The notes under the pieces: generated by a model
Seen by the model: the letters and a program-made list of their open reading frames with translations, nothing else
Database searches by the model: none
Told to the model about the DNA's origin: nothing
Translations under genes and position numbers: made by a program
IMG/VR virus record: IMGVR_UViG_3300021356_000038
Coordinates: 1-45,171 of that record
DNA: 45,171 nucleotides
Strand: one strand, 5' to 3'
Source: a virus
Shown here: one piece after another, positions 31,114 to 41,767 of the stretch
Layout of the letters: each line of letters begins with the position of its first letter
How positions within the stretch are numbered: position 1 is the stretch's first letter

Positions 31114-31841
31114 CCCTTTCCCTCAATCTTATGAGCCGTCTTCATGCGCTTGTGAGCCCTTTCAGACTTCTTCGCTACAGATTCAGGATCCTCACCACTA
31201 GCCTCTCCAACCTCAGCATTCTTGTAAATTTTATTTGCACTTGTTCTAAGTCTGCCAGCAACGCGCTTTCTCTTATTTTTAGCTCTGAGAGCTAATGCCT
31301 CTTTGTCCATCGCTCTCTTCTGACCAGTAGTAAGATCCTCATCAGCCTTGAGAGCTCTACCCCTCGCCGTCTCAGGAGTTTGATCGTCCCTCCTATCACC
31401 TCTAATGTATCTTCCCATCGCTTCCGTAGATTTTTTAATCTTCTTGTTTACCCTAGCTTCTCCTAACATAGCCTCAGCTAAAACATCTCCAAGCATAGTG
31501 TAAGATTCCGCTTTGAGCTTCTTCTTAGGCTCAGGCTTTTCGTTTGGCTCAGGCTTTTCGTTTGGATCACCGTCACCAGTAATTTTATTAGCCAACTTTT
31601 GCATTCTAAGGCTTTTTGCTCTTTCCCGGTTTTTAGCACGTGTCGCCGCCTTAGCTACGCCAGGGTTTTCTCTGTCCCTTTTGAGCTTCTCTATTGCACG
31701 CTCTCTATCAGCTTTGGTTCTGTTATTCTTAGCTAACGGATCAGGCGTGTCGTCCCTACGCATCTCCCTAGCCACCCATTTTTGGCCCTTTGTCAGGCCC
31801 TTATCCACTTTGGCCTCTTCTAACTTATCTAAGTATCTCAT
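31110..31841 (-). CDS. Very basic protein with several prohead-protease sites, candidate internal head protein
   Basis: From ATG at 31841 the product is 243 aa. This start, rather than the TTG at 31853, is supported by GGAG six nt upstream. The N-terminus MRYLDKLEEAKV has LEE-Ala at residues 7-10 and resembles T4 IPIII (MKTYQEFIAEA). Further LAE-Ala and LGE-Ala sites lie at about 121-129, after a Pro/Glu/Lys repeat (NEKPEP twice). The rest is Lys/Arg/Ala-rich helix. It looks like two head-targeted modules in tandem, which the gp21-type protease would separate. Function in T4 internal proteins is host takeover after injection; the specific role here is unknown. Confidence 0.6.
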   Translation of the reverse strand: MRYLDKLEEAKVDKGLTKGQKWVAREMRRDDTPDPLAKNNRTKADRERAIEKLKRDRENPGVAKAATRAKNRERAKSLRMQKLANKITGDGDPNEKPEPNEKPEPKKKLKAESYTMLGDVLAEAMLGEARVNKKIKKSTEAMGRYIRGDRRDDQTPETARGRALKADEDLTTGQKRAMDKEALALRAKNKRKRVAGRLRTSANKIYKNAEVGEASGEDPESVAKKSERAHKRMKTAHKIEGKG

Positions 31842-32063
31842 AATTAACTCCAAGTTCTACTCTTATGTAGCTTAGGAGTCCCTTAATCTGGGTGGGAATT
31901 TTTTAAATTATGAGTCCCATCAAAAGTAATAGGAGTCCCTGCATATAGGTGGCTTTGGGCGTTACTAGGAGTCCCATCAACGTCAAATCCTCCGGTGACC
32001 TAAGTGCATAGGGGGCAGGGGGTTACGCACGCCAGAAACCTGCTAGGAAACTAGTGCATGGGG
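31842..32063. other. Intergenic stretch with four GAGTCCC repeats
   Basis: About 220 nt between the minus-strand virion block and the plus-strand island hold no convincing gene. GAGTCCC occurs at 31876-31882, 31912-31918, 31933-31939 and 31969-31975, most often as AGGAGTCCC. Spacings are 36, 21 and 36 nt. Two copies continue into ATCAA. This could be a regulator-binding region between two blocks with opposite directions. Confidence 0.5.
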
Positions 32064-32091
32064 TTGCATTCCCTGGGGATCGTGCTATAAT
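32064..32091 (+). promoter_or_regulatory. Sigma70-like promoter, first of the island
   Basis: TTGCAT at 32064-32069, 16-bp spacer, TATAAT at 32086-32091, then AGGGGC and ATG. The start point would be the start codon, giving a leaderless mRNA. Confidence 0.7.
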
Positions 32092-32097
32092 AGGGGC

Positions 32098-32265
32098 ATG
32101 AACAGCAAGACCGCTACCCTCCTGGTTCTCCTCTTCGTCGTTAGCCTCGTGATCTACCTTGATGCTCGCTTCGGTGAGGAGACGATCAAGCCGAGCACGA
32201 AGAAAAAGGCTCTGAAATCTCAGGGAATTCTGCTCGCTGGCCTTGCCATCCTCGGCATCTTCTGA
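32098..32265 (+). CDS. Small membrane protein (55 aa)
   Basis: ATG at 32098 opens a 55-codon frame. Residues about 5-20 (TATLLVLLFVVSLVIYL) and 43-55 (GILLAGLAILGIF) are hydrophobic, separated by a charged loop with Glu, Lys and Thr. A two-pass or hairpin membrane protein is likely. Its stop codon TGA directly precedes the next -10 (TATAAT). A good promoter ends 6 nt before the ATG. No family is recognised. Small membrane proteins in early phage regions often act in superinfection exclusion or lysis control, but nothing specific is shown. Confidence 0.6.
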   Translation: MNSKTATLLVLLFVVSLVIYLDARFGEETIKPSTKKKALKSQGILLAGLAILGIF

Positions 32266-32271
32266 TATAAT
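32243..32271 (+). promoter_or_regulatory. Sigma70-like promoter
   Basis: TTGCCA at 32243-32248, 17-bp spacer, TATAAT at 32266-32271, 7 nt to the ATG at 32279. It lies inside the end of the preceding gene. Confidence 0.7.
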
Positions 32272-32278
32272 GCACACC

Positions 32279-32452
32279 ATGAAAGCAACTAAGAGCATCA
32301 CGGACGCCAAGGGCGTGACCTGGACCATCTCTCACTCTCCTGGGGTCCACATCCAGGACCTCCACATCGGGCGCTCCTCCGAGGGCCATTACACCAGCTT
32401 CTGCACTCGGAGCGGTGCGCTCAAGTGGCTCAAGCGTAACGCTACCTCATGA
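32279..32452 (+). CDS. Small protein (57 aa), function unknown
   Basis: MKATKSITDAKGVTWTISHS begins a beta-rich 57-aa protein that ends in a basic helix (ALKWLKRNATS). The ATG at 32279 is chosen over upstream in-frame ATGs because TATAAT ends 7 nt before it. The stop overlaps the next start (ATGA). No family is recognised; the length and hydrophilic character fit a small early phage protein. Confidence 0.6.
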   Translation: MKATKSITDAKGVTWTISHSPGVHIQDLHIGRSSEGHYTSFCTRSGALKWLKRNATS

Positions 32453-32685
32453 ACAAAACAGTCTACAGCGTCGAGATCTTCGAGCACCACGTTGGCATCC
32501 GAGAGTATCACCTTTTTTTGTCCTCGCGGAAGGCCGAAGATTTCGCTGAGGGCTACATGACCCAGCAAGAGGAGTCCATCGACGAGGTCTACCAGAAGCT
32601 TGGCACGAGCACCGAGGATGAGGTTCGAATCTGGGGAGGTTGGGAAGAAGATGTGATTATTCGTCGAATGGACTTGCTTGGCTGA
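32449..32685 (+). CDS. Small protein, paralogue of the next gene
   Basis: This 78-aa protein starts MNKTVYSVEIFEHHVGIREY and continues HLFLSSRKAEDFAEGYM. The next gene product (MKKAVYTVVEGEDNYGISSF, then KLFDSEEKARAYANGRM) aligns along this whole segment, so the two are tandem duplicates that have diverged. The fold is probably beta-beta-beta-helix. It is translated by coupling to the upstream gene through an ATGA overlap. Function unknown. Confidence 0.65.
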   Translation: MNKTVYSVEIFEHHVGIREYHLFLSSRKAEDFAEGYMTQQEESIDEVYQKLGTSTEDEVRIWGGWEEDVIIRRMDLLG

Positions 32686-32702
32686 TCGAAGCAGGGTATA
32701 AT
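32674..32702 (+). promoter_or_regulatory. Sigma70-like promoter
   Basis: TTGCTT at 32674-32679, 17-bp spacer, TATAAT at 32697-32702, and 7 nt to the ATG at 32710. Confidence 0.7.
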
Positions 32703-32709
32703 GGCACAC

Positions 32710-32934
32710 ATGAAGAAAGCAGTTTACACGGTGGTCGAGGGTGAGGACAACTACGGCATCTCCAGCTTCAAGCTGTTCGACAGCGAGGAGAAGGCTAGGG
32801 CCTACGCCAACGGCAGGATGGCGCTGACGGCTGGCAAGGTTTACCCTTGGGTGGAAGAGCCCTTGAAGGGTGCCGTCGCCAACTGGCAAGCGGCGTGTGA
32901 TTACATGACCATCTTCATCAAGGAGGTCGAGTAA
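32710..32934 (+). CDS. Small protein, paralogue of the preceding gene
   Basis: This 74-aa protein is paralogous to the gene before it (shared K-x-VY-V, GI-x-F/Y-x-L and A-x-x-x-A pattern over the first 37 residues). The C-terminal halves differ. The ATG at 32710 follows TATAAT by 7 nt; the in-frame ATG at 32701 overlaps the -10 and is rejected. The stop overlaps the following ATG (TAATG). Confidence 0.65.
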   Translation: MKKAVYTVVEGEDNYGISSFKLFDSEEKARAYANGRMALTAGKVYPWVEEPLKGAVANWQAACDYMTIFIKEVE

Positions 32935-33086
32935 TGATCGGAAAACCGTATGTGGATCGCACTAGCATAATCTGCGAGTGCTGCGACCAAGAGAAACCGT
33001 GGTCTGAGCGTTGCGAGGGCTATATCTGGATCGACATTTGCGAGGACTGCGAGACTGATTTCAGCATGGCAGAGAAAGCACAATGA
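32934..33086 (+). CDS. Small zinc-binding protein (50 aa)
   Basis: A 50-codon frame starts at 32934 within a TAATG overlap. It has CECC and CEDC pairs plus another Cys between them (ERCEGYIWIDICEDC), a layout that fits a zinc ribbon. Charged residues surround it. The ribosome-binding site AGGAGG lies in the end of the previous gene. Typical of small phage regulators of host enzymes, but no target is known. Confidence 0.6.
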   Translation: MIGKPYVDRTSIICECCDQEKPWSERCEGYIWIDICEDCETDFSMAEKAQ

Positions 33087-33295
33087 ACCAAGATCAAAAA
33101 GACCGAGCCCTGCGCTCTGTATTCTTCGGACAGCCTGGACCGTTCCTCTACTCTGGCAAGGTGCTAGACGATAGCGTCTTCTGGTCTCAGGACAAGTGGT
33201 TCCAAGCGGAGCGGCTTAGGCTGTCCTTGTCTCGCGCTAAGTTGCGGGCACTAGGTGACCTCTGGTTCTGCAACCTTTGCTGGCAAAACCCTTGA
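33083..33295 (+). CDS. Small protein (70 aa), function unknown
   Basis: The ATG overlaps the upstream TGA (ATGA). The product is rich in Arg, Leu and aromatic residues (DRALRSVFFGQPGPFLYSGK) and ends in CNLCWQNP, with one CxxC. Its stop codon is part of TTGAC, which directly precedes the first hairpin-box cassette. No family is recognised. Confidence 0.5.
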   Translation: MNQDQKDRALRSVFFGQPGPFLYSGKVLDDSVFWSQDKWFQAERLRLSLSRAKLRALGDLWFCNLCWQNP

Positions 33296-33300
33296 CCTGG

Positions 33301-33425
33301 GGGGCTTAGGCCCCGGCGGCGACCGCCGTAAGTCCATATACCTCAGGCACTTACGAGCGAAATTTTATGCCCTCAGAACGGAGAAAGGCTACCACCTGAG
33401 GAGCAAGATCGAGTACAATAGGGGC
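33301..33425 (+). promoter_or_regulatory. Hairpin-box-promoter cassette A
   Basis: Hairpin I GGGGC-TTAG-GCCCC (33301-33314), hairpin II GGCGG-CGA-CCGCC (33315-33327), the 27-bp box with ends GTAAGT/ACTTAC (33328-33354), then 59 nt to TACAAT (33414-33419). ACCACC lies 17 nt upstream of TACAAT as a non-canonical -35. Six nt separate the -10 from the ATG at 33426. The hairpins lack a T-tract, so simple intrinsic termination is doubtful. Confidence 0.8.
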
Positions 33426-33677
33426 ATGATGAATCCCAACGCAGACAGCAACCTCACCGACGCCGACTTCGACCTCATGGACAAGATCTTCCTGGCAGGG
33501 TGGGAGTTCGGCAAGGCCAACATCAGCCAGACGGCTACCGAGGCGCTCATCCTGTTCAAGATGGCAATCTCTCAGCCCGATCTGACGGATCCTATGGATG
33601 CTGCCATCAAAGCGGGCATCAAGAAGACCGACGCCCTTTGGGCCGCTGACGCGAAAAAGAACGCCGAAATGAATTGA
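33426..33677 (+). CDS. Small protein (83 aa), function unknown
   Basis: Start at 33426 (ATG ATG; the second is also possible). The helical acidic protein begins MMNPNADSNLTDADFDLMDK and continues with FLAGWEFGKANISQTATEAL. The frame runs open upstream through the cassette, but the TACAAT promoter 6 nt before the ATG shows where the gene starts. It is the first gene fed by a hairpin-box cassette. No family is recognised. Confidence 0.6.
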   Translation: MMNPNADSNLTDADFDLMDKIFLAGWEFGKANISQTATEALILFKMAISQPDLTDPMDAAIKAGIKKTDALWAADAKKNAEMN

Positions 33678-33754
33678 AATGCCCAACGCCCCAGGGTATA
33701 ATGGGGCTCACACGGGGGAGACCCCACTCATCCAACATCAACCAAAATCAGATC
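33674..33754 (+). promoter_or_regulatory. Sigma70-like promoter with a leader hairpin
   Basis: TTGAAA at 33674-33679, 17-bp spacer, TATAAT at 33697-33702. Unlike its neighbours this promoter gives a leader of about 45 nt, which contains GGGG-AGA-CCCC. No clear Shine-Dalgarno is seen before the ATG at 33755. Confidence 0.65.
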
Positions 33755-33985
33755 ATGTTCAACGACATCACCAACATCGTCCGCTCCAACCAAAACGCCG
33801 TCATGTTCCGCATCGGGAATGGCAGCGCCTCGTCTGCCATCTATAGCATCGTGGATGTGAAGACTCAGAAGACCATCAAGGTCGGTACACGCGATGCGTG
33901 CAAAGCCTACTGGAATCGTCACCTCAAGAACTCTCGCCAGTTCGTGACGCCCAACGGCTCAAACCATCGCTTCATGGGGGCCTGA
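33755..33985 (+). CDS. Small protein (76 aa), function unknown
   Basis: MFNDITNIVRSNQNAVMFRI begins a mixed alpha/beta protein; the end, NSRQFVTPNGSNHRFMGA, is Asn/Arg-rich. The ATG at 33755 is the first one behind the promoter that lies outside the -10. The middle part (YSIVDVKTQKTIKVGTRDAC) looks like a small beta-sheet. No family is recognised. Confidence 0.55.
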   Translation: MFNDITNIVRSNQNAVMFRIGNGSASSAIYSIVDVKTQKTIKVGTRDACKAYWNRHLKNSRQFVTPNGSNHRFMGA

Positions 33986-34000
33986 TGATCCCCCACTCGT

Positions 34001-34051
34001 CAGGGCGAGTCTAAATAGCATTTAGGCCCTGAGCGGCTCCCTTCGGGGAGC
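34001..34051 (+). promoter_or_regulatory. Two tandem hairpins directly before a start codon
   Basis: The first hairpin pairs CAGGGC with GCCCTG around an inner perfect stem CTAAAT-AGC-ATTTAG. The second is GCTCCC-TTCG-GGGAGC (34036-34051) and ends 2 nt before the ATG at 34054. It can block ribosome access or act as a 3' end for the upstream gene. CTAAATAG could also be a late-type promoter element. Confidence 0.6.
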
Positions 34052-34053
34052 GT

Positions 34054-34314
34054 ATGACTAGCTTCAACATTCATGACGTTCACGAAGTCCTTCCCGAAGT
34101 TCACCACTCCAGCGATGGCCGAGGTTGGATCACTCTTAGGGCCAAGCGCAGGAACTTCTTCAATGGGGACGATATGGAAGATATCGAGGTGACCATGTTC
34201 ACCGACGATATCCTCATGCTGGCAGATGATCTCGCGTGGGAAGTGCGCCAGCAGTCCGCCATTCACCTCTCGCATCTGAGCAAAAGAGAGGAGGAAAACC
34301 AAGAGTCCGCTTGA
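34054..34314 (+). CDS. Small protein (86 aa), function unknown
   Basis: The product begins MTSFNIHDVHEVLPEVHHSS and is acidic in its second half (DDMEDIEVTMFTDDILMLAD), with a Glu/Lys-rich end. The start sits immediately behind a strong hairpin and has no Shine-Dalgarno. The stop codon TGA is part of TTGAC before cassette B. No family is recognised. Confidence 0.55.
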   Translation: MTSFNIHDVHEVLPEVHHSSDGRGWITLRAKRRNFFNGDDMEDIEVTMFTDDILMLADDLAWEVRQQSAIHLSHLSKREEENQESA

Positions 34315-34318
34315 CATC

Positions 34319-34444
34319 GGGGGCTTCGGCCCCGGCGCGGACGCGCGTAAGTCCATATACCACAAGCACTTAGGAGAGAAAGTTTCTGCCCCCAGACTCA
34401 AGATAGATCACCACCTGAGGAGCAAGATCGAGTACAATACAGGC
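34319..34444 (+). promoter_or_regulatory. Hairpin-box-promoter cassette B
   Basis: Hairpin I GGGGC-TTCG-GCCCC (34320-34333); hairpin II GCGC-GGAC-GCGC type (34335-34346); box with ends GTAAGT/ACTTAG (34347-34373); 59 nt; TACAAT at 34433-34438 with ACCACC 17 nt upstream; 6 nt to the ATG at 34445. Stem II differs from cassette A at several positions but still pairs. Confidence 0.8.
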
Positions 34445-34792
34445 ATGAAGACAGAAACGATCTACAAAAGCGATGCCTACCCCCAAGTCACGAACACGGA
34501 GCACTTCCGACAGATGATCCTGTGGGGATGTGATGGTGTCAAGGACAAGCCTGACCTACAGGCTCGCTGGAAGTTCTTCGATCCGTGCGGTGCTGCCACT
34601 TGGTACATCGCAGAAGCCGAGCGTGTGGGGGATGATCTCCAGATGTTCGGGTGGTGTGATATGGGCATGGGTTACCCTGAGCTTGGCTATGTCATGCTCT
34701 CGGATCTCGCCTCTATCTCTGGTCCTCTGGGTCTTGGCATCGAGCGGGATATCTTCTTTGATCCCTGCCCGCTTAGTGAGGTGATGTCTTGA
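34445..34792 (+). CDS. DUF2958 family protein
   Basis: This 115-aa protein has the DUF2958 signature: DPCGAATWYIAEAE, then LQMFGWCDMGMGYPELGYVM and GPLGLGIERDIFF. The family is widespread on plasmids, integrative elements and some phages; its function is unknown. The protein is complete for the family (about 100-110 aa). It is the only gene of the island that I can assign to a widespread family besides the GP88-like one. Leaderless start behind cassette B. A coupled TTG-start gene follows. Confidence 0.8.
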   Translation: MKTETIYKSDAYPQVTNTEHFRQMILWGCDGVKDKPDLQARWKFFDPCGAATWYIAEAERVGDDLQMFGWCDMGMGYPELGYVMLSDLASISGPLGLGIERDIFFDPCPLSEVMS

Positions 34793-34944
34793 AGCATACC
34801 CTCTCGCTTGGTTCTATCCTGGGTGGTCAGGATTTGGAGGACTTCCTCGAAGAGATGGACCAAGCCGCCTGTGAGTGGCTGGGTCTGGACGAAGAGATGC
34901 AAGACGCATCGAATATCACGGTGACCTTCGAGACACCCGACTGA
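34789..34944 (+). CDS. Small acidic protein (51 aa, TTG start)
   Basis: TTG at 34789 overlaps the TGA of the DUF2958 gene (TTGA) and has a strong Shine-Dalgarno (GAGGTGA) five nt upstream. The 51-aa product has about 13 acidic and only one basic residue after Lys2, e.g. GGQDLEDFLEEMDQAACEWL. It is helical and acidic, as often seen in small phage inhibitors. It may act together with the DUF2958 protein. Confidence 0.6.
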   Translation: MKHTLSLGSILGGQDLEDFLEEMDQAACEWLGLDEEMQDASNITVTFETPD

Positions 34945-34975
34945 AAAAAACCTGGGCTCTTCTCTTGACTGGGGA

Positions 34976-35099
34976 GGGCTCAGGCCCCGGCGCGGAGCGC
35001 CGTAAGTCCATATACCACAGACACTTACGACCGAAAGTTTCTGCCCTCAGAACGAAGATAGTTCACCACCTGAGGAGCAAGATCGAGTACAATAGGGGC
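34976..35099 (+). promoter_or_regulatory. Hairpin-box-promoter cassette C
   Basis: Hairpin I GGGC-TCAG-GCCC (34976-34987); hairpin II GGCGC-GGA-GCGCC (34989-35001); box with ends GTAAGT/ACTTAC (35002-35028); 59 nt; TACAAT at 35088-35093; 6 nt to the ATG at 35100. The 40 nt before the -10 are nearly the same as in cassettes A and B. Confidence 0.8.
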
Positions 35100-35381
35100 A
35101 TGAAGAACGAGAAGAACATCGACTGCAACGGCGACTCCTGGCACCTCGAAGCTGAGGACAGCAACGGGATCACCGTGTGGGCTGCGTGGCGTGTCACCTT
35201 CAACGGTCACCAGAAGAACCTCTCTTGGCACTGCTCCGAGGCTGACGCTCAGGCGTTCATCGACGCTGGCATTGCTCAGGCCAAGCGCAGGTCTGAGGAG
35301 ATGGCTGCTGAACAGCGTTCGGCTTACGAGCAGAATCTGGCCGATATGGCCGAACTCCGTGGCCCGCGAGGTTGGGTCTGA
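35100..35381 (+). CDS. Small protein (93 aa), function unknown
   Basis: This protein begins MKNEKNIDCNGDSWHLEAED, with a beta-sheet portion (GITVWAAWRVTFNGHQKNLS) and a C-terminal helix rich in Ala, Glu and Gln, ending LRGPRGWV. The frame is open upstream through cassette C, but the promoter marks the ATG at 35100. It overlaps the next tiny gene (TGATG). No family is recognised. Confidence 0.6.
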   Translation: MKNEKNIDCNGDSWHLEAEDSNGITVWAAWRVTFNGHQKNLSWHCSEADAQAFIDAGIAQAKRRSEEMAAEQRSAYEQNLADMAELRGPRGWV

Positions 35382-35464
35382 TGGAAGAACAGAACAACGC
35401 CCTCGAATTCCTGGCAGTCCTGGGCACTGCCGCTCTCTGGATCTCTCTTACCTTTCTAATCTGA
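35381..35464 (+). CDS. Tiny membrane peptide (27 aa)
   Basis: Between two TGATG overlaps lies a 27-codon frame, MEEQNNALEFLAVLGTAALW followed by ISLTFLI. It is a short polar start and one hydrophobic helix, which fits a single-pass membrane peptide. The exact stop-start coupling on both sides supports translation. Function unknown. Confidence 0.5.
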   Translation: MEEQNNALEFLAVLGTAALWISLTFLI

Positions 35465-35598
35465 TGGACGAACTCTCTAACCTGTCGGGTGGCTTTACTA
35501 TGGACGAAGAACTCACGCTCGAAGAAATCGAACAGATCCTCGGTGACCTTGTGGGGGACCTTCTCCCTGACGCAGACATCGACGCTCTAGAAAGCTAA
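35464..35598 (+). CDS. Small acidic protein (44 aa)
   Basis: The ATG at 35464 overlaps the previous TGA. The product is very acidic (MDEELTLEEIEQILGDLVGD, then LLPDADIDALES) with no Lys or Arg. Helical and Leu-rich, it could bind a host protein or mimic DNA; nothing decides this. A strong hairpin (start of cassette D) follows. Confidence 0.5.
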   Translation: MDELSNLSGGFTMDEELTLEEIEQILGDLVGDLLPDADIDALES

Positions 35599-35611
35599 AC
35601 TTTCGAGGTTT

Positions 35612-35752
35612 GCCCTTGCCCTTCGGGGCAGGGGCGGGCCGGGGGCGACAGCCCTAAGTCCATATACCACAGGCACTTACGAACGAAAAAAGATCCAAAG
35701 GAACTCAAGAAACACCCCCACCTAGGACGATAAATAGAGTACAATGGCACGC
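35612..35752 (+). promoter_or_regulatory. Hairpin-box-promoter cassette D
   Basis: Hairpin I is longer than in A-C: GCCCTTGCCC-TTCG-GGGCAGGGGC (35612-35635). Hairpin II is GGGC-GACA-GCCC (35643-35654). The box ends in TAAGT/ACTTAC (35654-35680). The next 59 nt differ strongly in sequence from A-C but keep the length. TACAAT is at 35740-35745, preceded by GATAAATAGAG; 7 nt to the ATG at 35753. Confidence 0.8.
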
Positions 35753-35998
35753 ATGAGCACTGAGAACTACAGCCGCGAGGAACTCATCTCCCTTTACTCT
35801 GACCTCCAAAAGGAGGCGTGGGGATTCCGTCCCCGTGAGTTTGATTTCATGTCTACCGCTCAAATCGGGCGTGGGGTGGACTATTTCCACAATCTTCTTG
35901 CCGAGATGGCTGAGGAGGCTGCAGAGGCAGCGGACCCCAATTCTTGGCAGAAGTATGTTCCTACTTCCACTTTCACTAACACCCTTAAGTTTTCCTGA
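35753..35998 (+). CDS. Small protein (81 aa), function unknown
   Basis: MSTENYSREELISLYSDLQK begins a helical protein with an Ala/Glu stretch (LAEMAEEAAEAADPN). The ATG at 35753 is chosen because the upstream in-frame ATG at 35744 overlaps the TACAAT element. It is followed within 3 nt by another gene. No family is recognised. Confidence 0.6.
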   Translation: MSTENYSREELISLYSDLQKEAWGFRPREFDFMSTAQIGRGVDYFHNLLAEMAEEAAEAADPNSWQKYVPTSTFTNTLKFS

Positions 35999-36000
35999 TC

Positions 36001-36327
36001 ATGTTCGATACCAAAAACTATATCCTGCACGATGGTCTAAACGATGCCATCTCCCAAGCTGAAGACGATGCGCGGGACATTGAGCTACAGGAAGCCCTAG
36101 AAGACATCAAGAACGATGCGTGGGACACCTATGAGCGGGACATGGAAATCTACGCTCTAGTTCATGAGCTTCAAAGCTGGGGTAGCATGTGGGATGAGCA
36201 AGAGGCGATCGAAGAAATCACCTACCTCTACAAGTTTGCCAGGGCTAAGTTCCTGCGTCTCTACGAGGGCGTTTACACCACGCTGCACCCGTTCGATCTG
36301 AACAGGTTCGTCAAAGAAATCCGCTGA
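36001..36327 (+). CDS. Acidic helical protein (108 aa), function unknown
   Basis: The product is acidic and helical (AISQAEDDARDIELQEALED), with aromatic residues in the second half (FARAKFLRLYEGVYTTLHPF) and a short basic end. The start follows the previous stop by 2 nt. It precedes cassette E. No family is recognised. Confidence 0.6.
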   Translation: MFDTKNYILHDGLNDAISQAEDDARDIELQEALEDIKNDAWDTYERDMEIYALVHELQSWGSMWDEQEAIEEITYLYKFARAKFLRLYEGVYTTLHPFDLNRFVKEIR

Positions 36328-36339
36328 TTTAGTTGACGA

Positions 36340-36467
36340 GGGGGCTTCGGCCCCCGGCGGCGACCGCCGCAAGTCCATATACGACAGACACTTACGCACG
36401 AAATTTCTCCCCCCTAGACTCAAGATAGTTCACCACCTGAGCCGATAAATAGAGTACAATGGCACAC
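36340..36467 (+). promoter_or_regulatory. Hairpin-box-promoter cassette E
   Basis: Hairpin I GGGGGC-TTCG-GCCCCC (36340-36355); hairpin II GGCGG-CGA-CCGCC (36356-36368); box with ends GCAAGT/ACTTAC (36369-36395); 59 nt; TACAAT at 36455-36460, with ACCACC 17 nt upstream and GATAAATAGAG just before; 7 nt to the ATG at 36468. Confidence 0.8.
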
Positions 36468-36704
36468 ATGAACGAAAACGACTACCCCGAGGGTTTCGAC
36501 CCCACCCTTCCGACCGACCGACAGCCCGTGACCGAGTGGGACCAACCGATGGACGAAGCGGACAGCTACGTCGATTGGGATGAGGTCTCCGATGCGGACG
36601 CAGACTGGCGATGGGAGGAATCCCACGAATACCTGGATCTTGCCGATGATGAGCAAGCGTTCGGGTCCGCAGGTTTCGGCATGGACGAGACTTACGACTA
36701 CTGA
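36468..36704 (+). CDS. Extremely acidic small protein (78 aa), possible DNA mimic
   Basis: Roughly a third of the 78 residues are Asp or Glu, with two Arg, one His and no Lys. Tyr and Trp are spaced through the sequence (DSYVDWDEVSDADADWRWEE). Such composition is typical of DNA-mimic proteins such as T7 Ocr, which block restriction enzymes, but many acidic phage proteins do other things. The leaderless start behind cassette E suggests early expression, which would suit anti-restriction. The function is a guess. Confidence 0.6.
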   Translation: MNENDYPEGFDPTLPTDRQPVTEWDQPMDEADSYVDWDEVSDADADWRWEESHEYLDLADDEQAFGSAGFGMDETYDY

Positions 36705-36722
36705 TCTTTTCCCCTTTCTTCC

Positions 36723-36751
36723 TGGACAATCACACCAAACCGAGGTATAAT
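36723..36751 (+). promoter_or_regulatory. Sigma70-like promoter
   Basis: TGGACA at 36723-36728, 17-bp spacer, TATAAT at 36746-36751, then ACACGC and the ATG at 36758. Confidence 0.7.
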
Positions 36752-36757
36752 ACACGC

Positions 36758-37039
36758 ATGAAAGATTTCAGCAACGACGCCACGATGGCGCAACTTCAGG
36801 GTATCTCCGTTCAGCTTGGCGACATCTTCGCCCGTGTCTATCGCGACACCAAGAAGGACGTTCAGCTTGACGGTAGCCCGACCTACCTGTCTCTTCAGAT
36901 CCTCGAAGCGTACAAGGAGGTGCGCCGATGCCTTCCTCGCGAGGGCAACTTCAAGGATGCCCGACACATCGGAGCCGATGCGGCTCACTCTGCCACGCAG
37001 GGGGATGAGCTTCCCCGTCACCTGAGCAACCAGGGCTGA
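36758..37039 (+). CDS. Small protein (93 aa), function unknown
   Basis: The product starts MKDFSNDATMAQLQGISVQL and is helical with mixed charge; the C-terminal part (ARHIGADAAHSATQGDELPR) is likely disordered. Own promoter, leaderless start, own strong terminator just downstream, so it is a single-gene transcription unit. No family is recognised. Confidence 0.6.
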   Translation: MKDFSNDATMAQLQGISVQLGDIFARVYRDTKKDVQLDGSPTYLSLQILEAYKEVRRCLPREGNFKDARHIGADAAHSATQGDELPRHLSNQG

Positions 37040-37048
37040 TAGATGACA

Positions 37049-37140
37049 GGGAGCGGGTGAGCTAGAGTTTTACTCGCGACCCGCTCCCTCCCACTGCCCC
37101 CGAAAGATCCTAACCGAGTGCGATCTTTCGGGGGGTTTTT
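37049..37140 (+). terminator. Double hairpin with intrinsic terminator
   Basis: A first stem GGGAGCGGGT/ACCCGCTCCC (37049-37058 with 37079-37088) is followed by CCCCCGAAAGATC/GATCTTTCGGGGG (37097-37109 with 37122-37134) and GTTTTT. The second is a strong rho-independent terminator. It closes the first part of the island. Confidence 0.85.
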
Positions 37141-37149
37141 GTGGACTTG

Positions 37150-37265
37150 GGCGGCTTCGCCGCCGGGGCGTCCCGCCCTAAGTTCATATACCACAGGCAC
37201 TTAGGACCGAAAAGAAAACCGAGGAACACACGCCAAATCCCTTGCGGGTGTGGTATACTGAGGGC
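37150..37265 (+). promoter_or_regulatory. Hairpin-box-promoter cassette F (short spacer)
   Basis: Hairpin I GGCGGC-TTC-GCCGCC (37150-37164); hairpin II GGGCG-TCC-CGCCC (37166-37178); box with ends TAAGT/ACTTAG (37178-37204). Here the distance to the -10 (TATACT, 37254-37259) is 49 nt, ten less than in the other copies. Six nt to the ATG at 37266. No ACCACC is found 17 nt upstream. Confidence 0.8.
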
Positions 37266-37910
37266 ATGAAGACCACTACTCTCTACAAGAAGGGCATCAA
37301 ACGCCCGATGGAAGCCAAGAACATTCTCAAGCCTGGGGGCAATAACAAGAAGCTTGGCCGTAAGATCAAAAAAGGCAAGTGGAGTGGCGCTTATATCTAT
37401 TCGCTAACGCTTACCGAGCGTGCTACTTGTCCCACTAGTTGTCACCATTGGGATGATTGTTATGGTAACAATATGCCCTTTGCTCACCGTTTCGAGCATG
37501 GCCCTTTGCTAGAGGATAAGCTTACCGAAGAAGTGGCAGCACTATGCTCCAAGCATGATAAGGTCGCTATTCGTTTGCACGTTCTAGGCGACTTCTATAG
37601 CATCGACTATGTTCGCTTTTGGGATGGCCTTATGTGCATTCACCCTAACCTACACGTTTGGGGTTATACCGCTCGCGTTGATAGGATTGGGCGTGAGGTT
37701 ATGGCTATGAACCTGCGGTATCCCGACCGTTGGGCTGTTCGCCTCTCTGGCAACAATGATAGCTGCGGCCCTACCCAATGGTATGCGGCAGAAGAAAAGT
37801 TTCGGGGTCAATCATTCGACTGCCCCGAACAAACAGGCAAGGCCGCTTCCTGTGCCGATTGTGCTGCTTGCTGGCAATCTTCTATGACCGTTCGCTTCCT
37901 CTCCCACTGA
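37266..37910 (+). CDS. GP88-family phage protein
   Basis: This 214-aa protein resembles the phage gene-product-88 family. A basic N-terminus leads to AYIYSLTLTERATCPTSCHH followed by DDCYGNNMPF, then HVLGDFYSIDYVRFWDGLMC and a C-terminal CPEQTGKAASCADCAACW. The 13 or so Cys residues, in CxxxC/CxxC sets, suggest a metal or Fe-S cluster. The family is found in actinobacteriophages and other phages; I know no established function. The ATG at 37266 has a TATACT 6 nt upstream. Assignment is by remembered pattern, so moderate. Confidence 0.7.
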   Translation: MKTTTLYKKGIKRPMEAKNILKPGGNNKKLGRKIKKGKWSGAYIYSLTLTERATCPTSCHHWDDCYGNNMPFAHRFEHGPLLEDKLTEEVAALCSKHDKVAIRLHVLGDFYSIDYVRFWDGLMCIHPNLHVWGYTARVDRIGREVMAMNLRYPDRWAVRLSGNNDSCGPTQWYAAEEKFRGQSFDCPEQTGKAASCADCAACWQSSMTVRFLSH

Positions 37911-37922
37911 TTTTCGGGATTT

Positions 37923-38061
37923 GCTCTTGCCCTTTGGGGCGGGAGCCGCCGGGCGCGACCGACCTAAGTTCATATTTCTCACGGACTTACCCTCAAAAAT
38001 TTGCCTACATAGATTGGAGAAAGGTGCCCACGGGAGCCGATGAATAGAGTACCATACACAT
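37923..38061 (+). promoter_or_regulatory. Hairpin-box-promoter cassette G (degenerate)
   Basis: Hairpin I GCTCTTGCCC-TTTG-GGGCGGGAGC (37923-37946) pairs through several G-U pairs. Hairpin II (37951-37964) has one mismatch. The box (37964-37990, ends TAAGT/ACTTAC) has changes in the middle (CATATTTCTC). The spacing to TACCAT (38050-38055) is again 59 nt; 6 nt to the ATG at 38062. Confidence 0.7.
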
Positions 38062-38250
38062 ATGCGCCACTACGCAGAGACCGATTCCAAGGCCATCAGG
38101 GCCTCTCATGGTGGTGCGGGCTTCAAGTGCCCGTGCTGCAATCGCTTTGGTATGTCTACTAAGCGTAGGCATAGGGCTAAGAAGAGCGATAGCCGTTTCG
38201 TTCGGCGTAAGCTCAAGCAGAACCTTAGGAACAACAAAGGAGATAACTAA
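38062..38250 (+). CDS. Small basic zinc-finger-like protein (62 aa)
   Basis: CPCC in the middle (GGAGFKCPCCNRFGMSTKRR) and a very basic C-terminal half (RRKLKQNLRNNK) suggest a small metal-binding nucleic-acid protein. Only one Cys cluster is visible, so a full zinc finger would need His ligands or a dimer. Leaderless start; the stop overlaps the next ATG (TAATG). Confidence 0.55.
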   Translation: MRHYAETDSKAIRASHGGAGFKCPCCNRFGMSTKRRHRAKKSDSRFVRRKLKQNLRNNKGDN

Positions 38251-38642
38251 TGACTAATCTAATCACTAAAGAATTCGATTGGGACGCTGCTAGTAAGCAG
38301 GTCCTTAGTAACCTCGACAACACTAACACGGGAGCAAGAGAACGAGTAGAAAAGCATATCGGTTCTCTAATGCTTAAGAAACATAGATGGCCCGATATCT
38401 ATACCGATGATCCTTATGCACTAGCTACTAGCTTTTTCGATCTCCATTTCCTTAGCTATACTGGTTTTGAGAACGCTAGTGATGGTATGAACATCTGGGA
38501 GGGAAATGATAACGTACTGATTAGCCAAGAGGAGTTTATGCTAAGGCTTATGGAGGTGCAGTATGCTATCGAAGTAGTGTATGGCGATCTTAAAGGCCAC
38601 GAAGCGTTTAACTACTACATGAACGGACGGCACGATACCTAA
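38250..38642 (+). CDS. Protein of unknown function (130 aa)
   Basis: Helical protein beginning MTNLITKEFDWDAASKQVLS, with aromatic and acidic residues in the second half (EVQYAIEVVYGDLKGHEAFN). It has a proper Shine-Dalgarno (AGGAG) 7 nt upstream and is coupled to the previous gene by TAATG. Base composition is lower in G+C than in the genes before it, so this may belong to another module. No family is recognised. Confidence 0.6.
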   Translation: MTNLITKEFDWDAASKQVLSNLDNTNTGARERVEKHIGSLMLKKHRWPDIYTDDPYALATSFFDLHFLSYTGFENASDGMNIWEGNDNVLISQEEFMLRLMEVQYAIEVVYGDLKGHEAFNYYMNGRHDT

Positions 38643-40905: not shown

Positions 40906-41478
40906 TTATAGCTGGTTCTGGAGCTTTGCTCCAATACTTTTAAGGGTGCTGTCAGCTTCTGCCCACGCAATCCCCATCTCCCTAGCCAATGCGCTTCGGT
41001 TAGTGTCACCTTGCTCAGTGATCAGGGTAGGATCTTCCACAAGGAGACGCACAGCGCGTAGCTCAGTCTCATTCAATAGCTTCGGAAGATCCTCAAGGAA
41101 CATATCGAAATCAACAGACTCAAACGAGTAGTCCTCCTTCTCCATGACCTCACTGTTTTCCCAGGTAGACACCGTGTCCCTGGTAATGTTGTATCGTTGT
41201 GCAATCTTAGTGCCTTTGCTGTTCTTGCTGTTCCACAGAGCAGTCTTGACATACTTGTTCCAATGAGCCGTGTCTTTGAAGTCTTCGTACCCACCAGGGT
41301 AGTCCTCCTCATTCAGACGGGAAAACGTATTGATTGTCTCAAAGAGAACAAGCCACAGGTCTTGCACATTGTCTTCAATGGTAGCTGTGGCCTTATCACC
41401 ACTAATCCAGTGTGCAATCTTGTAAATAAGTTTGCCGTAACGGTCTTCAAGTTCGTTGTATTGTAGTTCGGTAAGCAT
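40906..41478 (-). CDS. Sigma-like transcription factor (probable)
   Basis: From ATG at 41478 the protein has 190 aa. The segment from LIYKIAHWISGDKATATIED to NVQDLWLVLFETINTF resembles sigma70 region 2. A linker with YNITRDTVSTWEN follows, and a C-terminal helix-turn-helix-like part (NRSALAREMGIAWAEADSTL) could be region 4. Length fits T4 gp55 (185 aa) or ECF sigmas. As a late sigma it would redirect host polymerase to late promoters; alternatively it could serve the ACCACC/TACAAT promoters. The upstream gene ends 4 nt before. The family call is by pattern only. Confidence 0.55.
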   Translation of the reverse strand: MLTELQYNELEDRYGKLIYKIAHWISGDKATATIEDNVQDLWLVLFETINTFSRLNEEDYPGGYEDFKDTAHWNKYVKTALWNSKNSKGTKIAQRYNITRDTVSTWENSEVMEKEDYSFESVDFDMFLEDLPKLLNETELRAVRLLVEDPTLITEQGDTNRSALAREMGIAWAEADSTLKSIGAKLQNQL

Positions 41479-41482
41479 AAGT

Positions 41483-41767
41483 TCAAGCAGCAAGGGTTTC
41501 TCGGATGACCTCGTAAAGCTCCATCGTCTCCTTTTCGCAGGGACCCTTGTAGGAACTGATAGCATAAAGTGCGCTGTATAAGGAGTCATACTCCTCGATG
41601 ACCTCCCAGGTGCCCTTCGGGCGCTGTCGAATGACACGCCAGACAGCAGCCTCCTCGTTCGAGTAGATCTTGTAACGGCGTCCAGCCTCATACCAGACCA
41701 TGTTGAAAACATCCTTGTAGGATTCGTCGGGCGCAGGGAAATCGAATGTGTAGTCGGTGTTCTTCAT
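41483..41767 (-). CDS. Small protein (94 aa), function unknown
   Basis: The ATG at 41767 follows TATAAT by 6 nt, which overrides the upstream in-frame start at 41791. The protein starts MKNTDYTFDFPAPDESYKDV and has a beta-hairpin-rich middle (AAVWRVIRQRPKGTWEVIEE) and a helical end. It is the first gene of a unit that continues into the sigma-like gene. No family is recognised. Confidence 0.6.
   Translation of the reverse strand: MKNTDYTFDFPAPDESYKDVFNMVWYEAGRRYKIYSNEEAAVWRVIRQRPKGTWEVIEEYDSLYSALYAISSYKGPCEKETMELYEVIRETLAA

Follow-up and report, generated by a model that had tools for sequence, protein, structure and literature searches.

In a virus sequence of 45,171 bases (one complete IMG/VR record, hereafter the window), a 25-bp imperfect dyad lies upstream of small phage genes at distances to the promoter that differ by one helical turn, and the same quantized spacing is present in related phages, which are large and mostly uncultured, and in the cultured Stenotrophomonas phage DLP6. 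We consider it highly probable that this reflects a DNA-bound regulator phased with RNA polymerase; the protein itself is inferred. The portal and terminase of the window have low-identity matches to T4-like phages, and a BLAST search revealed no DNA match of the region in known phages. The cassettes that carry the dyad (the box) are concentrated at 32 to 38 kb, upstream of small genes that mostly belong to no known family (only two cassette genes have Pfam matches), and the record's structural portion has no box. The G+C content is 55% in the small-gene region (31500 to 38600) versus approximately 40% in the structural region and elsewhere, which suggests a different origin or different selection.

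The earlier note on this DNA had described seven intergenic cassettes (A to G), each with two hairpins (I and II), a 27-bp box with TAAGT...ACTTA ends around a CATATA core, and a -10 element 59 nt (49 nt in F) past the box. All seven were found in place, on the + strand. The boxes occupy 33329 to 33353 (A), 34348 to 34372 (B), 35003 to 35027 (C), 35655 to 35679 (D), 36370 to 36394 (E), 37179 to 37203 (F), and 37965 to 37989 (G). Their ends are as described, except that E begins with CAAGT (first base C, not T); the length is 25 bp, and the core of G is CATATT. The -10 element is TACAAT in A (33414 to 33419), B (34433 to 34438), C (35088 to 35093), D (35740 to 35745), and E (36455 to 36460), TATACT in F (37254 to 37259), and TACCAT in G (38050 to 38055). 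The genes that follow are located at 33426 to 33677, 34445 to 34792 (DUF2958), 35100 to 35381, 35753 to 35998, 36468 to 36704, 37266 to 37910 (Pfam GP88), and 38062 to 38250, respectively. The claim of a constant spacing was correct in form (i.e., equal in A to E and G and 10 nt shorter in F), and the values are 60 and 50 nt, one extra box base having been included in the earlier count. The box pattern had seven matches in the window's own record and none in the reversed control. An eighth, diverged copy (TAAGTGCATAGGGGGCAGGGGGTTA; 32001 to 32025, + strand) had been missed; it was detected by a scan with a consensus from relatives, has no hairpins I and II, and lies exactly 60 nt upstream of a TATAAT (32086 to 32091) that precedes an ATG at 32098 (ORF, 32098 to 32265).

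Single-sequence folds supported hairpins I and II in A (33302 to 33328), B (34318 to 34347), C (34976 to 35002), D (35613 to 35654), E (36340 to 36369), and G (37923 to 37964), but not in F, which carries a single, different GC-rich hairpin (37149 to 37178). The hairpins fold well in A to E and G, yet they are the least conserved part of the cassette, and no T-run follows hairpins I and II in the window. Upstream regions in the clade fold barely better than shuffled sequences (mean z, -0.75). The phasing does not require the hairpins, since the copy at 32001 has no hairpins I and II and some DLP6 units have no hairpin. By analogy with DLP6, we regard them as putative insulators or terminators of the preceding unit.

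Promoters of the window's clade consist of a TATAAT -10 element preceded by TGG, with a TTG (-35) 20 to 22 nt upstream. The ATG follows the -10 element by 6 nt in 77 of 103 clade units and by 7 nt in 23 (100/103 together). If transcription begins approximately 7 nt past the -10 element, the mRNAs are leaderless; the genes look so, with an inferred transcription start at or beside the start codon. The leaders of DLP6 units are longer. The promoter search demanded an ATG 5 to 8 nt downstream of the -10 element, and the leaderless share of all boxes cannot be derived from it. No clear -35 element was found in the window promoters A to E and G. A second promoter type without a -35 element has GATAAATAGAG or GATGAATAGAG before TACAAT/TACCAT (D, 35731 to 35745; E, 36446 to 36460; G, 38041 to 38055), and CGATAA-like versions of these sequences, which resemble the T4 late motif TATAAATA, recur in related phages.

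RNA elements were observed in the same region and in relatives. A Pistol self-cleaving ribozyme (Rfam RF02679; 66.7 bits) is located at 33995 to 34057 (+) of the window and is overlapped at its 3' end by the start codon of the ORF at 34054; the ribozyme is also present in four related phages (L133, 1621 to 1716; L134, 7398 to 7494; L131, 9696 to 9768; L132, 1776 to 1861). Relatives also carry RNA genes of approximately 80 nt that align over the full length of the tmRNA model although the entire tag-coding portion is absent. At least nine different copies are present; they are located at L134:9699-9780, L133:3956-4036, L135:2386-2468, L131:7463-7544, and L179:1556-1636 (-), and further copies are in L158, L193, L205, and L291. 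These RNAs retain only the tRNA-like domain with a GGGGGUG acceptor (G3-U70), and CCA is encoded in the five that were checked. In L131, L133, and L135, the gene lies directly upstream of a box cassette, and G026 (L525) has a 354-nt form. Such RNAs are possibly decoys of ribosome rescue.

We examined the specificity of the box in relatives retrieved independently of it, by protein similarity to GP88 and to terminase. These two sets contained 54 and 90 oriented boxes, compared with 0 to 8 and 2 to 10 for shifted, reversed, or scrambled controls. Across all retrieved DNA, including loci retrieved through the motif itself, the dyad TAAGTSSTTRNNNNNYAASSACTTA occurred at 1028 distinct sites in 207 loci, and altered dyads occurred at 3 to 29 sites in the same DNA. 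The pattern shortened by one base at the center had no viral matches, versus 88 with the correct spacing; the exact window box had no match in other viral contigs. A strict version matched no more than 19 stretches among 84,980 species genomes of bacteria and archaea, and almost all of these are in MAG contigs; the motif is therefore mainly phage borne. T4, phiM12, phiM9, Mel-JY01, immuto, and LR756511 had no boxes, or three-mismatch matches no more common than in the reversed control, with one pair of box matches in immuto as the exception. Record LR756501 (735 kb), an apparent BLAST match, was rejected since the pattern revealed no box. Two boxes flanking a GC hairpin are a common arrangement in many phages. 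In other phages (L403:3670-3720 and L415:460-545), long, GC-rich inverted repeats (e.g., GGGGCCCC) beside A/T runs either border the dyad or have a dyad on each side, as if, from the sequence, the dyad lay inside bidirectional terminators.

According to the earlier note, distances scattered without a 10-bp periodicity in related genomes would have refuted the phasing. The check on relatives revealed a strong periodicity of approximately 10 bp, both in the window's clade and in DLP6. Among 103 distinct clade units, the distance from the box to the -10 element was 48 to 51 nt in 52 units, 52 to 57 nt in 6, 58 to 61 nt in 27, 62 to 65 nt in none, and 66 to 70 nt in 6; the remaining units fall outside 40 to 75 nt and are mostly first boxes of pairs, at 100 to 119 nt. 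The mean resultant length at 10.5 bp was 0.75 (91 units) and 0.72 (42 spacer-cluster representatives), while the maximum under a smooth null was 0.33 in 20,000 draws. Since one single peak raises the resultant length at any period, the distances of 52 to 72 nt were tested separately and were also periodic (p ~5e-5). The strong rule is limited to the clade and DLP6, because other box-carrying phage groups are only weakly periodic (p 0.013), with a cosine maximum at 9 rather than 10.5. Helical phasing between paired boxes was not supported; the box-to-box distances (42, 46 to 48, 50, and 53) are not strict turn multiples.

DLP6, a T4-like phage, was reached through a text search for the box halves (PMC5349666). 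Its half-site TCAASSACTTA occurs as two copies 25 to 26 bp apart upstream of gene clusters, arranged as direct repeats, whereas the box of the window's clade is a dyad. A terminator mostly lies between the half-site pair and the promoter. The distances to the -10 element fall into three classes at all 14 sites (33, 33, 33, and 34; 43, 43, and six times 44; 54 and 54). The DLP6 spacers differ from those of the clade and are quantized in the same way, and DLP6 is an independent instance.

Cassettes A, B, C, and E are 61 to 80% identical across 163 nt, as would be expected if the constant spacing were merely inherited from recent cassette duplication and the distance itself were unselected. That explanation retains very little credibility. 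Approximately 51 spacer clusters of unrelated sequence exhibit the same distance classes, and DLP6 is quantized likewise with other spacers. Within one phage, 83 of 132 pairs of unequal spacings differ by 10 to 11 nt and 24 by 19 to 22 nt (56 of these pairs come from DLP6); because these differences are mostly 10 to 11 or approximately 20 nt, inheritance is excluded for unequal spacings. The box could also serve mainly in recombination or genome shuffling (i.e., as a module boundary like those of the promoter/stem-loop cassettes [PeSLs] discussed below), or it could bind a protein involved in replication or packaging. The location of the cassettes at gene boundaries, the small orphan genes, and the G+C contrast recall PeSLs, but 10-bp phasing to the -10 element is not expected of such a site and no exchange junction was demonstrated, so that we judge this possibility quite unlikely.

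The box (TAAGTSSTTR-N5-YAASSACTTA) was then considered as DNA or RNA on the basis of 853 distinct sequences. Positions 6, 7, 19, and 20 are C or G in either orientation, and the pairs 6/20 and 7/19 are Watson-Crick at frequencies of 0.45 and 0.43, versus 0.50 and 0.40 under independence. No covariation was detected at any conserved dyad position. Because the halves vary without covariation, we infer that the box is recognized as double-stranded DNA; an RNA hairpin requires complementarity and a protein recognizing each half alone does not, which favors a DNA-bound protein. Were the box instead to function as RNA, forming hairpin III of a structured leader or 3' end, its position next to GC hairpins, the ability of TAAGT and ACTTA to pair, and folding marginally better than that of shuffles would be accounted for. 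However, the compensatory base changes that define a structured RNA stem are missing, the box lies upstream of the promoter and hence outside the transcript with which it is phased, and helical phasing is meaningless for RNA; we give this reading almost no weight. The box itself has no Rfam match.

In the arrangement that we propose, each cassette would be the promoter unit of one small phage gene, and the box would be a double-stranded operator with two half-sites (consensus TAAGTSSTTR), usually as an inverted pair. A dimeric regulator, probably phage encoded, would bind the box and share a helical face with RNA polymerase approximately 5, 6, or 7 turns downstream. Recurrence of sites at whole helical turns is the expected signature of class I promoters. 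At these promoters, a dimer at -61.5 or further upstream touches the alpha C-terminal domain of the polymerase (PMC2859248). An A/T-rich patch lies at +8 to +15 past the box in both the 48-to-51 and the 58-to-61 class; because its position is the same in both, it moves with the box. The regulator may set the alpha C-terminal domain on this patch, a contact that is inferred and for which the patch is only suggestive. The transcript would start at or beside the start codon and be leaderless, with the upstream GC hairpins insulating or terminating the preceding unit.

The earlier suggestion of a DNA-bound protein facing the promoter is supported by the phasing and the missing covariation, while binding, identity, and activation have not been shown. 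Activation of the class I type is inferred, and we favor it with some reserve; the model as a whole (i.e., phased operator, dimeric and probably phage-encoded regulator, class-I-type activation, and leaderless start) seems to us reasonably likely. Against it stand the failure to find a binding protein, the missing -35 element in A to E and G, the weak periodicity in other box-carrying groups, the box-to-box distances, and the direct-repeat arrangement in DLP6. A repressor or silencer operator, comparable to dispersed stoperators and phased through looping to or holding the polymerase, would be suited equally well by a dyad at dispersed intergenic positions, and phasing is useful to repression loops as well. 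We nevertheless regard repression as unlikely: the box centers near -74, -84, and -94 (taking the -10 start as -12) are typical for upstream activation, the box does not overlap the promoter, the adjoining A/T patch travels with it, and the clade has T4-like head genes with no integrase noticed (the record being a fragment).

No convincing DNA-binding candidate emerged when eight box phages (DLP6 and large box phages) were compared with T4 and Mel-JY01. The family phrog_624 ("DNA binding protein") has seven records, all box bearing, but was not accepted as a candidate, since it is missing from other large box records (e.g., G003); other families common to box phages are nucleases or structural or metabolic proteins. 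Among the families listed by a Pfam/PHROG scan of 81 proteins from a 112-kb relative, none was clearly a regulator. Separately, the window encodes at 40906 to 41712 (-) a conserved protein, also present in relatives G001 to G003, with a weak match to sigma-70 region 2 (E 0.009), possibly a phage sigma-like factor.

Precedents exist for promoter/stem-loop cassettes, for phased activators, and for inverted repeats in front of phage genes. In the papers that could be searched, we found no account of the dyad, its phasing, or a 25-bp phage operator that is turn-quantized to leaderless promoters and common to many phages. PeSLs, according to PMC4503421, are T4-type phage cassettes of a promoter and a stem-loop only (Arbiol 2010; Comeau 2014). 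The window cassettes resemble them as repeated intergenic promoter/stem-loop units with small genes in a T4-like phage, and they differ from this description of PeSLs by the additional 25-bp dyad at a quantized distance and by hairpins without a terminator T-run. The stem-loop is not an intrinsic terminator in the window, whereas ARNold predicted terminators at the corresponding places in DLP6. The ESAS of cluster K mycobacteriophages are likewise inverted repeats, of unknown function, upstream of many small genes and nearly all in one orientation; they differ in their 17-bp arms, variable spacer, adjoining start-linked 13-mer, and unrelated sequence (PMC3203893).

For DLP6, the published description reports 25 PHIRE-predicted "phage promoters" (22 are arranged in twos) that precede clusters starting with genes 060, 092, 113, 121, 131, and others (PMC5349666). 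The clusters named there coincide with the places of the half-site TCAASSACTTA, which we located directly upstream of genes 113, 121, and 131. We conclude that the half-site probably appeared in this 2017 paper already, as a phage promoter prediction rather than as an operator; its correspondence with the published logo is inferred. The paper defines the promoters by sequence only and does not mention half-site pairing, phasing, or a link to other phages. Because the cultured DLP6 carries a version of the system, the binding protein and the phasing are open to laboratory tests.

A mechanistic parallel is the class I promoter as known for Escherichia coli CRP, with a dyad upstream of -35, discrete positions, and one helical face (PMC2859248). 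The box meets the criteria of a dyad site upstream of -35 and of positions recurring at whole helical turns. It does not meet the CRP/FNR consensus (TGTGA-N6-TCACA or TTGA-N6-TCAA), its core being TTGA-N3-TCAA inside a 25-bp site. The box is longer and different, its regulator is unidentified, and it serves a phage small-gene region with a leaderless start. For T4-like and other large phages, whose gene control is unknown, the system would represent a further level of regulation, and its compact rule (operator, turn count, -10 element, ATG) can be read from sequence to find where promoters and small genes lie in phages that have not been cultured. A tentative proposal, which could well prove wrong, is an undescribed family of phage-encoded activators that is conserved in many unrelated uncultured phages and, from 25-bp operators 5, 6, or 7 turns away from the promoter, drives dozens of leaderless genes in each genome; if true, phages would possess an equivalent of a global class I regulon.
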